Assembly: GCA_946478975.1 (NCBI GenBank)
Contig: CAMLEO010000006.1
Coordinates: 1 to 58,449 of the forward strand
Length of the DNA stretch: 58,449 nt
Direction of reading: 5' to 3'
Source of the DNA: an uncultured Steroidobacter sp.
GTDB taxonomy: Bacteria; Pseudomonadota; Gammaproteobacteria; Steroidobacterales; Steroidobacteraceae
Shown piece after piece: positions 2,992-30,864 of this stretch (position 1 is its first letter; each line of letters opens with the position of its first letter). The position numbers and the translations under genes are program-made. Below the pieces are notes generated by a model. It searched no databases. It saw nothing but the letters and a program-made list of their open reading frames with translations, and was not told where the DNA came from.

Positions 2992-3966
<975 letters not shown>

Positions 3967-4006
3967 GAAACAGCATCTTGTTCACACTTACCGGGCACGT
4001 CCACAC

Positions 4007-5302
4007 ATGCGTATCGCAGTCATTGGCGCAGGAATCGCAGGTCTCTACGCAGCCTGGCGGCTGAGCCGCCAGCACGAAGTCACAGTGTTCGAAGCCGGCA
4101 GCTACGCCGGCGGCCATACCAACACGGTCGATGTCGAATGGCAGGGCAAGCAGTACGCCATCGACACCGGCTTCATCGTGTTCAACGACTGGACCTACCC
4201 GAATTTCATGGCGATGCTGAAAGAAATCGGCGTCGCCTGGCAGCCCTCCAACATGAGCTTCAGCCTGAAGTGCGAGCGCACCGGGCTGGAATACAACGGC
4301 ACCTCGGTGAACGCGCTGTTCGCACAGCGCTCGAACATCGTCTCGCCGTCGTTCCTGCGCATGATCTACGACATCCTGCGCTTCAATCGCGAGTCTCGCG
4401 CGCTGCTGAAGACGGACGACAACAAGCTGACGCTGAGCGAATACCTGCGCCAGAACGGTTACTCCGAGTCGTTCGCCGAGCGTTACATCCTGCCGATGGG
4501 CCGTGCGATCTGGTCCGCCGAAGCGGACGCGATGCTGTCGTTCCCGGCGCGCTTTTTCGTGGACTTCTTCGAACGCCACGGCTTCTTGAACATCGACAAT
4601 CGCCCGCAATGGCAGGCGGTCAAAGGCGGCTCGCGCGAGTACGTGCGCAAGCTGCTGTCGGTGATAAAGGCCGATGTGAAATTGTCGACGCCGATCGACA
4701 GCATTCGCCGTCGCCCCAACGAGGTCGAAGTCTGCACGCGCAAAGGTGAAGTGCATCGCTTCGACAACGTGTTCATCGCGTGCCACAGCGATCAGGCGCT
4801 CGCCATGCTGAGCGACGCGACGCCGGCCGAACGTGAAGTGTTGAGCGCGTTCCCGTACGCGCCTAACGAAGCAATCCTGCATACGGACATGAGCATTCTG
4901 CCGAAGCGTCCGCTGGCGCGAGCTGCGTGGAACTACCACGCGCTCAAGAATCCGCAGCAGCCGGTCGCGCTGACGTACGACATGAACATCCTGCAGACGC
5001 TGGATGCGCCGACCAGGTTCCTGGTCACGCTGAATCACGCCGATGCGATCGATCCGAGCAAGATCATTCAGCGCATCGCCTATCACCATCCGGTGTATCT
5101 GCCCGCCGGCGTCGCCGCGCAGGCGCGTCACCGCGAAGTGAATGGCGCTCGCCGCACTTATTACTGTGGCGCCTACTGGCGTTACGGTTTTCATGAAGAC
5201 GGTGTCGTCACCGCGATGCGCGCGCTGGAACATTTCCAGTGGGATCAGACGGCGCGCACCGAATCCCCCGAACGAGATCAGCCCGCCGCCGGCGTGGCCT
5301 GA
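4007..5302 (+). CDS. FAD-dependent amine-oxidase-type oxidoreductase of the lipid operon
   Basis: A 431-residue flavoprotein. The N-terminus MRIAVIGAGIAGLYAAW gives the Rossmann GxGxxG at residues 7-12, followed by the acidic end of the second strand (VFEAGSYAGGHTNTV). Proteins of this type sit beside DUF1365 and Cfa-like genes in many proteobacteria and act on fatty acyl or related lipid substrates. In Rhodobacter the furan-fatty-acid pathway (UfaD, UfaO) uses genes from this kind of neighbourhood. The substrate here is unknown. ATG at 4007 was chosen because the Rossmann fold begins immediately; the open frame extends upstream into the desaturase gene without meaning. Confidence 0.85.
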   Translation: MRIAVIGAGIAGLYAAWRLSRQHEVTVFEAGSYAGGHTNTVDVEWQGKQYAIDTGFIVFNDWTYPNFMAMLKEIGVAWQPSNMSFSLKCERTGLEYNGTSVNALFAQRSNIVSPSFLRMIYDILRFNRESRALLKTDDNKLTLSEYLRQNGYSESFAERYILPMGRAIWSAEADAMLSFPARFFVDFFERHGFLNIDNRPQWQAVKGGSREYVRKLLSVIKADVKLSTPIDSIRRRPNEVEVCTRKGEVHRFDNVFIACHSDQALAMLSDATPAEREVLSAFPYAPNEAILHTDMSILPKRPLARAAWNYHALKNPQQPVALTYDMNILQTLDAPTRFLVTLNHADAIDPSKIIQRIAYHHPVYLPAGVAAQARHREVNGARRTYYCGAYWRYGFHEDGVVTAMRALEHFQWDQTARTESPERDQPAAGVA

Positions 5303-23457: not shown

Positions 23458-23477
23458 TACTGTTTATAAACACAGTT
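23458..23477 (+). promoter_or_regulatory. LexA (SOS) box upstream of tcmP
   Basis: The sequence TACTGTTTATAAACACAGTT fits the gammaproteobacterial LexA operator CTGT-N8-ACAG exactly, with an AT-rich centre and the favoured flanking TA. It ends 37 bp before the tcmP ATG at 23515, where a repressor would block transcription. Confidence 0.75.
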
Positions 23478-23514
23478 CCGCCAAATCTTCGTGATTCGCT
23501 TAGAGGGGAACTCA

Positions 23515-24387
23515 ATGGACAACGATGAAATAAGAGTTGATCCGACGGATGGCTTACCGGCAACTCCCGTCGGCGAGTGGGTAACCGACAAACACGGCTT
23601 GTTGAAGCTGTACATCGAGATCTCTCGTGGCGTGCGCTCCAAGTTTGTCGGACCGCGCAACGCAGGCGCTACATTCATTGATCTATTTTGTGCGTCCGGT
23701 CGCTCGTTCATTCGCGGCACCGATAACTTTGTTGACGGTAGCCCATTAGTGGCATGGCGGACGTCGATGGAGTGCAGAGCTCCCTTCACGGCCATCCACA
23801 TCAATGACAGCAGCGCCGATCTGCTGGCTGCCGCGGAAACACGGCTCAAAGGAATCGGTGCACCGGTCATCGCCTACGGAGGTGCTGCCGAGCTCGTCGC
23901 TGAGATTCTGGTCCGTCGCCTGAATCCTCACGCCTTGCACTTTGCATTGATTGATCCATACAAGTTGTGGCTACCGTTTCCAATGCTGACAACTCTTGCC
24001 ACGATGAAGAGAATGGACCTGTTGATCCACGTTTCAGCAATGGACCTGCAGCGCAACTGGGGACGCTACTCGAGCACTCCGGACTCGCCGTTGCACTCAA
24101 TGGCTCCCAACTGGCATAAATATGTGAGGCTTGATCAACCCGAGGAAGCGGCGCGCCTGGCGTTCATCCACTACTGGATAGACCTCCTGAAGCAGCTCGG
24201 GTTCGAAGGAGATGTACGATTTGAGCTTATTAAGGGCTCAAAAGGACAGCCTCTGTATTGGCTCGTGCTCGTGGCGAAGCATGAGATTGCGCTGAGCTTC
24301 TGGAAAAAAGGCAACGCAGTACAGAAAGACCGGGGATATGTTTTGAATCCGACAGGATTGAGCCATGACTTCAGCCAGCAACATTGA
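23515..24387 (+). CDS. tcmP: Three-Cys-motif partner protein TcmP
   Basis: A 290-residue protein matching the TcmP family, which occurs next to DUF5131 genes. It has a Rossmann/methyltransferase-like motif FIDLFCASGRS (54-64) and ALIDPYK (144-150). The function of the family is not established. ATG 23515 has GAGGGG six bases upstream, better than the GTG eight codons earlier. It overlaps the DUF5131 gene by 23 bp. A LexA box lies 37 bp upstream of the ATG. The gene is less GC-rich than its neighbours, which suggests transfer. Confidence 0.87.
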   Translation: MDNDEIRVDPTDGLPATPVGEWVTDKHGLLKLYIEISRGVRSKFVGPRNAGATFIDLFCASGRSFIRGTDNFVDGSPLVAWRTSMECRAPFTAIHINDSSADLLAAAETRLKGIGAPVIAYGGAAELVAEILVRRLNPHALHFALIDPYKLWLPFPMLTTLATMKRMDLLIHVSAMDLQRNWGRYSSTPDSPLHSMAPNWHKYVRLDQPEEAARLAFIHYWIDLLKQLGFEGDVRFELIKGSKGQPLYWLVLVAKHEIALSFWKKGNAVQKDRGYVLNPTGLSHDFSQQH

Positions 24388-25084
24388 ATGGACCGAATAC
24401 ACGTGGAACCCGGTGACCGGCTGCCTGAAGGTCAGTCAGGGTTGCAAGAACTGTTATGCGGAGAGAATGGCTAAACGGCTCAAAGCGATGGGTTCTGCGC
24501 GATACACGCGGGGTTTTTCACCGACGCTCCATTGGGATCTATTGGACTCCCCGCGGACGTGGAAAAAGCCGCGACTGGTTTTCGTCAACTCAATGAGTGA
24601 TTTGTTTTTGGACGACGTTCCGGACGAATTCATTCGAAGGGTCTTCGACACGATGGCGGCTTGTCCGCAGCATACGTTCCAAATCTTGACAAAGAGAAGC
24701 GAACGTTTGCGACTGATGGCACCACATCTTCACTGGTCGCAGAATGTTTGGATGGGGGTAAGTGTTGAAGATTCGCGCGTGACGACGCGGATCGCCGACT
24801 TAGCTTGCGTACCTGCCGCTGTTCGATTCCTATCCTGCGAACCCCTAATCGGTCCATTACATGAGATCCCATTGAACAACATTCACTGGGTGATTGTCGG
24901 TGGCGAATCAGGGCCGCGAGCACGCACCATGAAAGAAGAATGGGTCAGATCGATTAGACAACAATGTTTCGAAGCAAAAGTCCCATTCTTCTTCAAACAA
25001 TGGGGTGGAGTTCGCAAGGATATCTCGGGGCGCATGCTCGACGGGCGCATCCACGACGAGATGCCCTGCCGGATGTCAGCTTGA
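24365..25084 (+). CDS. DUF5131 (phage Gp37/Gp68) three-Cys-motif protein
   Basis: A 239-residue protein of family DUF5131, named from phage gp37/gp68. Near the N-terminus are Cys-20, Cys-27 and Cys-30 (C-x6-C-x2-C in GCLKVSQGCKNC), the three-Cys motif, which could bind an iron-sulfur cluster. Further family marks are FVNSMSDLF (about 75-83), ILTKR, GVSVED, FLSCEPL, VIVGGESG and FFFKQWG. The family has been compared with radical-SAM enzymes, but the spacing differs from CX3CX2C. AGGA precedes the ATG, and the gene is coupled to tcmP by a 23-bp overlap. It ends 23 bp from convergent lctP. Confidence 0.88.
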   Translation: MTSASNIEWTEYTWNPVTGCLKVSQGCKNCYAERMAKRLKAMGSARYTRGFSPTLHWDLLDSPRTWKKPRLVFVNSMSDLFLDDVPDEFIRRVFDTMAACPQHTFQILTKRSERLRLMAPHLHWSQNVWMGVSVEDSRVTTRIADLACVPAAVRFLSCEPLIGPLHEIPLNNIHWVIVGGESGPRARTMKEEWVRSIRQQCFEAKVPFFFKQWGGVRKDISGRMLDGRIHDEMPCRMSA

Positions 25085-29631: not shown

Positions 29632-30864
29632 CTAGACCGTGCGCCCGCCGTACTCGTCGGCGCGTTCTTTTTCTTCGGCGATAAAGCGCTCGAAACTCGG
29701 CCCGGCAACGCGGCCTTCGAGCGCGCGAGCCTGAGCATCGAGTTGGCGGATTGCCGCAAGCCGCTCGTCGTTTCCCAACCTGGCGCGACCGACTGCATCT
29801 TTGAGCACGCGAATGGTTTGATCGTAGACCTTGAGCGGCACAGGAAACGGATGGCCATCCTTTCCGCCGTGCGCTAGCGAGAAGCGAGCGGGATCGGAAA
29901 ATCGCGCAGGCGCGCCGTGCATCACCTCAGCGACAAATGCGAGTGCCGCGACGGTGCGAGCTCCGACGCCCGGCGTGAGTAACAGATCAGCGAAATCCTT
30001 TGGCCCGCGTTCCGCCGCAGCGGCAAGTGCGGCGTGCAACCGACGAAGCACGACATCCGATGCGTGCACTTCATGATGAGCAGGCAAGCGCAGGTGAGGT
30101 GTCGATGGATCCGGCATCGGCTCGGATTCAGGAAACAAACTCAGCGCCGCATTCCCTGGATCCCGCCAGCGTTTCAGCAGAGCGACCGGCTTGTCCGGCC
30201 CGGCGTGCACGAGTTCGAGCCCGGCCTGTCGGTTCCGCTCAGCACGTGCGTCGGCAAGATTGATGATCGAACCCTGGTTGCGCCCTTCGATCGCCGCATG
30301 CGGTGAGTCCAGGAAGCTGCGCAGATTCTCCGAGAGCCAGTGATAACGTCGCGCTTCACGCCGCTGCTCATTCATGCCCTGCTGGACGACGCACCAGCGC
30401 CCTTCGGCACTCACGATGAAAGCATGCAAGTAAAGATCGAACCCATCTTGCACCGCTGCGCTGTCGACCTTCGCCACCAAGCGACTGGCATTCGTGAGCG
30501 GCACGGCATCGAGACCGATGCGATCGCCAAGTGTCATCAGCTCGGCCGGCGTCTGTCGTGACTGTGCGCCCTTGCCGCCGCAAACATAAATTCCAAGCTC
30601 CTGCTGCAGCGGGGCGAGTCCGCGCTTCAACGCACCGATCACGCTCGTGGTGATGCCGGAGGAATGCCAGTCCATTCCCATCACGGCGCCGAACGATTGA
30701 AACCAGAATGGATGCGCAAACCGGCGCAACAGCTCGTCCCGGCCGTATTCGAGCACGATCGCTTCGACGATCACGCGCCCCAGCTTCGCCATGCGTGCCG
30801 AAAGCCACGGCGGGACACGGCCGCCGTGTAGGGGAAGATCTGCGCTGCCAGTTCGTTTCGCCAT
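29632..30864 (-). CDS. DUF763 domain protein
   Basis: A 410-residue protein of the DUF763 family, found in archaea and some bacteria. The start MAKRTGSADLPLHGGRVPPWL and the later HPFWFQSFGAVMGMDWHSSG, ALKRGLAPLQ, GRNQGSIINLADARAERNRQ and LLTPGVGARTVAALAFVAEV are characteristic. The last segment resembles a helix-hairpin-helix DNA-binding unit (PGVGARTVAALA), so contact with nucleic acid is plausible. It ends one base from the convergent outer-membrane gene. Confidence 0.88.
   Translation of the reverse strand: MAKRTGSADLPLHGGRVPPWLSARMAKLGRVIVEAIVLEYGRDELLRRFAHPFWFQSFGAVMGMDWHSSGITTSVIGALKRGLAPLQQELGIYVCGGKGAQSRQTPAELMTLGDRIGLDAVPLTNASRLVAKVDSAAVQDGFDLYLHAFIVSAEGRWCVVQQGMNEQRREARRYHWLSENLRSFLDSPHAAIEGRNQGSIINLADARAERNRQAGLELVHAGPDKPVALLKRWRDPGNAALSLFPESEPMPDPSTPHLRLPAHHEVHASDVVLRRLHAALAAAAERGPKDFADLLLTPGVGARTVAALAFVAEVMHGAPARFSDPARFSLAHGGKDGHPFPVPLKVYDQTIRVLKDAVGRARLGNDERLAAIRQLDAQARALEGRVAGPSFERFIAEEKERADEYGGRTV

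Follow-up and report, generated by a model that had tools for sequence, protein, structure and literature searches.

A putative LexA operator precedes a tcmP-DUF5131 gene pair that may act in the DNA-damage response

In a 58,449-base stretch of DNA from an uncultured Steroidobacter sp. (the window, meaning the whole of the DNA analysed), the overlapping genes for TcmP and a DUF5131 protein lie downstream of a putative LexA (SOS) operator, TACTGTTTATAAACACAGTT. Comparison with related loci makes it highly probable that LexA controls this cassette, as the original prediction from the sequence had proposed. With a little more belief than doubt, we lean towards reading the pair as a mobile module, repeatedly recruited to the SOS response, that uses radical S-adenosylmethionine (SAM) chemistry in DNA repair or damage tolerance.

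The box had been described as an exact CTGT-N8-ACAG operator 37 bp ahead of tcmP, and both points hold: no second exact match to its core occurs anywhere in the window, and 37 bp separate the box end from the tcmP ATG at 23515. The core alone is not rare in a window of this length (dinucleotide shuffles contained 0.46 cores on average, and at least one in 32 of 100), so the weight falls on where the box stands. When the 300 bp upstream of tcmP were shuffled, a core was present in 56 of 20,000 cases. Over its full length, TACTGTTTATAAACACAGTT agrees at 16 of 20 positions with the Escherichia coli LexA consensus. The overlap between tcmP and the DUF5131 gene amounts to 23 bp, and neither a terminator nor an Rfam match turned up when the cassette and its surroundings were scanned.

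A genome-collection scan with the DUF5131 protein matched at least 584 loci, of which the best 80 were kept. These were pooled with the window and several taxon samples, and duplicates were dropped. TcmP adjoins DUF5131 in 113 of the resulting 131 loci (tcmP first in 67, DUF5131 first in 27, convergent in 16, divergent in 3) and does not in 18. Between 250 bp upstream and 90 bp inside the first gene, exact CTGT-N8-ACAG boxes gave seven hits in six loci (the window, L001, L002, L121, L257 and L261, where one site registered for each of the two genes); the rate over all pooled loci predicts 0.60. The GAAC-N4-GTTC class gave seven hits in seven loci (L050, L061, L069, L128, L149, L162 and L262) against 1.12 expected. 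Locus L260 also carries a box; its tcmP is broken, and the scripted count missed it. In both L259 and L260 a TAG interrupts tcmP while the LexA box and DUF5131 remain, DUF5131 being split as well in L260.

The taxon samples give these boxes their distribution. TcmP exceeded its cut-off in 20 of 369 genomes in the class of G002, with DUF5131 adjoining in all 20; two have the exact box (L121, and L118, which is the same locus as L001 and was included by choice since it belongs to the centre genome), and L131 carries a near-copy of its own genome's lexA box. In the order of G003, 17 of 300 genomes passed the cut-off and four loci carry the exact box (L257, L259, L260 and L261), where L259 corresponds to L002, from the centre genome, and L267 ends at a contig edge. 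L254 has a one-mismatch box, and L255 has two one-mismatch boxes 5′ of the lexA in its gene string. TcmP was present in 18 of 296 genomes from the class of G008 (Crossiella), and GAAC-N4-GTTC stands 5′ of DUF5131 in three (L149, L162 and the centre genome's L153). Among 98 genomes of Mycobacterium (the genus of G001), TcmP passed the cut-off in 17, and CGAAC-N4-GTTCG starts 24 and 41 bp 5′ of DUF5131 in two of the 19 loci fetched. Such boxes as occur in actinobacteria, mycobacteria and UBP9 mostly belong to the type that the LexA of the respective host reads. Separately, four actinobacterial loci (L147, L148, L157 and L159) share a palindrome, CGCACATATGTGCG, about 40 bp 5′ of DUF5131; a single symmetric position sets it apart from CGAAC-N4-GTTCG, and it may represent a further operator.

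The window itself falls in a 15-row set of the DUF5131 tree. Five of the six same-class loci of this clade with tcmP and upstream DNA carry the perfect box (the window, L001, L002, L260 and L261). The DUF5131 of L260 is split, which keeps this locus outside the tree; its pieces match L001-L003 at 79-91% identity. L003 and L267, which end at contig edges, are outside this count.

Whether the host's LexA would read such a box was judged from a single genome, G295, the nearest relative by one marker protein among the genomes compared. The window encodes a DUF763 protein (29632-30864), useful as a marker for host kin, which matched 10 of 340 genomes from the class to which G003 belongs, with G295 best at 77% identity; G003, recorded as Betaproteobacteria, is the genome that carries L002. 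The lexA promoter of G295 (L332) holds GGGTGGTTATAAATACAGTT, identical to the window box at 15 of 20 positions, a level reached by none of 2,000 shuffles and none of 1,950 random window regions; its left half-site is poor. A second sequence, CTGTCCAAAACAACAG, starts 23 bp 5′ of the same lexA. Because this promoter resembles the window box, a host LexA that reads CTGT-N8-ACAG is likely, by analogy with the relative. G295 had no TcmP match in the class sample, and no box was found at its recA promoter. Across the recA promoters of 23 chosen genomes, we found an exact CTGT box in five, a GAAC box in four and a one-mismatch CTGT box in three. G295 also has a second lexA (L334), followed by frames that look ImuA- and ImuB-like by eye; the palindrome there, around AGACGCTCGTCT, does not resemble the box of the first lexA. 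A synteny comparison with two host relatives, made to look for an empty site, gave a good match for the DUF763 gene alone, while a further two genes of the window reached 31%.

Gene context supplies a second line of evidence. On one strand of L281 (genome G804) stand lexA, a gene for an unknown 117-aa protein, tcmP, DUF5131, imuA, imuB and dnaE2; LexA matches TIGR00498 at 230 bits, ImuA matches NF033429 at 219 bits, ImuB is recognised by its IMS domain, and DnaE2, whose gene ends at the stretch edge, reaches 913 bits on PRK05672 (cut-off 939). Two one-mismatch boxes lie directly 5′ of this lexA. A deltaproteobacterial locus (L043) combines lexA (220 bits), ImuA/RecA-like and IMS-like genes, both under their cut-offs, with tcmP and DUF5131; an ignavibacterial one (L023) has lexA, tcmP and DUF5131; and an IMS-domain gene precedes DUF5131 in L012. 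In L223 (G111) and L286 (G778) a LexA-like repressor diverges from tcmP, and ruvC lies near the cassette in L282 (G992).

Some details of these loci deserve mention in their own right. The 117-aa protein of L281 (5773-6126) had no Pfam or NCBIfam match. Between the divergent repressor and tcmP stand GAACGTTCGTTC in L223 (repressor at 4074-4766) and GAACGATCGTTC in L286 (5177-5755), and the repressor is possibly a dedicated regulator. Near the tcmP-DUF5131 locus of L285, a perfect CTGT-N8-ACAG (3070-3085) lies about 290 bp 5′ of a gene at 3373-4332; a SRAP-like reading of that gene, made from its start, had no NCBIfam match and was not used.

The tubercle bacilli offer a further context. We take Rv2734 of Mycobacterium tuberculosis to be a DUF5131 protein, by analogy with the mycobacterial loci analysed here, in which DUF5131 accompanies TcmP. 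Its neighbour Rv2735c follows recX and shares at least some of its transcription with recA-recX (PMC3062782). We read Rv2735c as TcmP because in BCG the protein numbered next to recX (BCG_2749c), BCG_2748c, bears a three-Cys-motif-partner domain (PMC7387457). A third paper places Rv2734, Rv2735c, recX and recA in a mitomycin-responsive gene cluster (PMC5057432). The pairing of Rv2735c and Rv2734 as TcmP-DUF5131 is our own, and the available portions of these three papers do not so name them. A signature search detected no RecA in 19 mycobacterial loci, which span about 5 kb to either side of the cassette or less where a contig ends; the M. tuberculosis papers are therefore the sole basis of the recA link. 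These papers qualify the earlier belief that such regulation was undescribed, since co-transcription with recA-recX and a mitomycin response are published, for the M. tuberculosis homologues only (PMC3062782, PMC5057432); the belief stands to the extent that our literature search, which covered few subscription journals, found no LexA control described for DUF5131 or TcmP under those names.

The proteins themselves point towards nucleic-acid chemistry. The C-x6-C-x2-C motif noted earlier in DUF5131 is present, its three cysteines (C20, C27 and C30) being invariant across 60 aligned sequences. The AlphaFold2 model (predicted local distance difference test, 90) resembles most closely spore photoproduct lyase (SplB), a radical-SAM DNA-repair enzyme, with RlmN about 3 Z units lower, and it displays both a radical-SAM-type barrel and clustered cysteines near the start. 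The profile for radical SAM mobile pair A (TIGR04471) gave 84.5 bits, under its cut-off of 355. In view of the C-x6-C-x2-C spacing, radical SAM is proposed here as a mode of action, and canonical membership is not assigned. Judging by fold and motif, DUF5131 most likely binds a [4Fe-4S] cluster on C20, C27 and C30 and cleaves SAM. Comparisons of profiles and of models both support the methyltransferase fold proposed for TcmP: its predicted structure is closest to RlmJ, to which it also has a weak profile match. TcmP carries FIDLFCASG near its start and LIDPYK at the position of the RlmJ motif, where the TcmP family consensus reads FLDPxG. RlmJ may account for the weak TIGR04474 matches that E. 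coli and many other genomes contain (L132-L141 and others).

A mechanism consistent with these features would run as follows. TcmP-DUF5131 would form a small operon repressed by LexA, as the comparative evidence suggests. In the established course of SOS induction, RecA filaments form on DNA damage and trigger LexA cleavage, which here would free the box upstream of tcmP and allow both proteins to be produced together. DUF5131 would reduce SAM on its [4Fe-4S] cluster to yield a 5′-deoxyadenosyl radical, which, if fold and motif are a guide, would most likely act on a damaged nucleobase or crosslink as spore photoproduct lyase does. TcmP, with its diverged RlmJ-type nucleic-acid methyltransferase fold, would most likely bind and present the substrate or methylate it. 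Such a module would have come under damage control repeatedly, by gain of a box or by placement beside lexA or imu genes. Matches to the DUF5131 family, counted at E up to 1e-5 and in part distant, occur in plasmid records (406) and phage records (159). GC content in the window falls from about 0.62 in the surroundings to 0.577 in the 23-24 kb block and 0.520 in the 24-25 kb block. The pair therefore looks acquired, and in the window it is probably an acquired operon.

A number of observations weigh against this interpretation. The recognised SOS link is confined to 20 of 145 rows of the DUF5131 tree, with 15 state changes, and 125 relatives lack one, which argues against universal SOS control; the expectation that boxes would mark related promoters is borne out at L001, L002, L260 and L261 but not family-wide. 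The link is either often gained and lost or hidden where LexA motifs are unknown. Within the window's clade, L115 has tcmP but no box, even allowing one mismatch, which fits gain and loss across the tree and leaves the odds of the competing readings unchanged; L008, in which no tcmP was found, likewise has no box at one mismatch, and an exact CTGT-N8-ACAG is also missing from those clade members whose records name other phyla. A consensus scan around the window's cassette found no sigma-70-type promoter. Of the 23 recA promoters, 10 had no box (one more lacked a usable frame), and the Salinispora lexA promoter has no exact copy of its cassette's box class. A comparison of words shared between lexA and cassette promoters put 5 of 85 genomes at rank 0 of 25, against about 3.3 by chance; the statistic is weak and the comparison tells only by the identity of the top words, two genomes (the AT-rich G721, and G705) being set aside as probable chance. 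Copies on viral contigs were considered as a second source of boxes and rejected, as none of 80 loci carried either box (0.19 and 0.76 expected); we keep this zero as a negative control, its expectation being too low for strong inference. On the protein side, the spacing in DUF5131 is x6 rather than the x3 of the canonical radical-SAM motif C-x3-C-x2-C, its profile retrieved no SplB chain among solved structures at E up to 1, and TcmP lacks DPPY, the catalytic motif of RlmJ.

A bolder version of the repair reading, which we hold tentatively and doubt somewhat more than we believe, would make TcmP-DUF5131 a widespread, hitherto overlooked SOS-inducible class of direct-reversal DNA repair. In it, an SplB-like radical-SAM enzyme would work with an RlmJ-derived partner that finds and flips the lesion, and the pair, spread by plasmids and phages, would have been wired independently into LexA control, into lexA-imuABC strings and into the recA operon of tubercle bacilli.

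Less probable, though a serious competitor, is an SOS-induced anti-phage defence, in which DNA damage by phage raises expression and the pair modifies or unmodifies nucleic acid to stop the phage. PADLOC models for the candidate system PDC-M41 match the adjacent pair (DUF5131 at 386 bits, TcmP weakly at 36 bits), and PDC-M30B also matches DUF5131. Among 136 flanking genes, the top 25 families of each list include, for Pfam, TIR_2 (3), AAA_21 (3) and MmeI (2) and, for PADLOC, type I restriction specificity (3); defence-type neighbours occur in a minority of loci. A DarG antitoxin (439 bits, 2984-4021 of L223) adjoins the LexA-like-tcmP-DUF5131 unit of G111, and in Sinorhizobium meliloti TcmP (SMa2243) is listed beside the Hna defence gene SMa2245 (PMC12445080). 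The low GC (0.52 against about 0.62) suggests acquisition. Set against these, lexA-imuA-imuB-dnaE2 and recA-recX are repair and mutagenesis contexts, the closest predicted fold of DUF5131 is a DNA-repair enzyme, and none of the 80 viral-contig copies has an SOS box.

We consider it quite improbable that the pair instead modifies rRNA or tRNA in the damage response, in the manner of RlmJ (N6-methylation of 23S A2030) and the radical-SAM enzyme RlmN. The RlmJ likeness of TcmP is shared by this alternative, but RlmN scores below spore photoproduct lyase in the DUF5131 fold comparison, and the SOS-linked contexts are lexA and imu rather than RNA modification (no search for RNA genes was made in the related loci). 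That the box is fortuitous and LexA inactive there is very hard to credit: some 0.46 matches are expected in DNA of this length, most relatives lack an SOS link and L115 lacks a box, but the position, the extended 16 of 20 match and the boxes in L001, L002, L260 and L261 all run the other way.

The features of the window's repair-module candidate are collected in the table below. The cassette is flanked by genes for an ADP-ribosylglycohydrolase and a lactate permease, and an ADP-ribosylglycohydrolase-type gene also lies near the cassette in L003. The ImuA, ImuB and DnaE2 of L281 and four LexA sequences, compared with the window's open reading frames, gave no match.

Features of the tcmP-DUF5131 cassette in window coordinates
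Feature	Position	Strand	Description
LexA (SOS) operator, putative	23458..23477	+	TACTGTTTATAAACACAGTT; core CTGT-N8-ACAG at 23460-23475
Likely ribosome-binding site	23502..23509	+	AGAGGGGA, 5 nt 5′ of the tcmP ATG; read from sequence
tcmP	23515..24387	+	290 aa; TIGR04474 122 bits (cut-off 53); methyltransferase-fold (RlmJ-like) partner protein
DUF5131 gene	24365..25084	+	239 aa; PF07505 335 bits (cut-off 28.9); radical-SAM-like; C20-x6-C27-x2-C30

TcmP-DUF5131 occurs in records from Proteobacteria to Actinobacteria, and we found no job assigned to it beyond its listing as a PADLOC candidate defence system. If the pair is indeed a damage-inducible radical-SAM module for repair or tolerance, it would add an enzyme class to the SOS response and assign a role to two proteins encoded near recA in M. 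tuberculosis; the reading predicts, in a form open to direct testing, that DUF5131 cleaves SAM and that survival depends on damage.

Several known systems bear comparison. PDC-M41 and PDC-M30, whose models match as described, are candidate labels only, for which we found no activity report. SOS regulons with accessory SplB-like radical-SAM photolyases have been described (PMC3765255, PMC8565304) and likewise place a radical-SAM protein of nucleic-acid-repair type under LexA or in SOS operons; DUF5131, by contrast, is a separate Pfam family with C-x6-C-x2-C and usually a methyltransferase-fold partner, and the term PF07505 is absent from PMC3765255. In its predicted fold DUF5131 is closest to SplB itself, but it has no detectable sequence match to it, spaces its cysteines differently, is smaller at 239 aa and is accompanied by TcmP at 113 of the 131 loci. 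RlmJ, the 23S rRNA A2030 N6-methyltransferase, is closest to TcmP by predicted fold and weak profile match, whereas TcmP has DPYK (family consensus DPxG) in place of DPPY and is paired with DUF5131. The lexA-imuA-imuB-dnaE2 cassette encloses tcmP-DUF5131 in G804, and in L043 the pair stands beside lexA and Imu-like genes; in the window we found no imu homologue, and the cassette has its own box. Finally, M. tuberculosis Rv2735c and Rv2734, as read above, set a TcmP gene in the recA operon and, with its neighbour, in a mitomycin-responsive cluster, with Rv2735c expressed by read-through from recA and without a box of its own, whereas the Steroidobacter pair would answer to damage through the operator directly upstream of tcmP.
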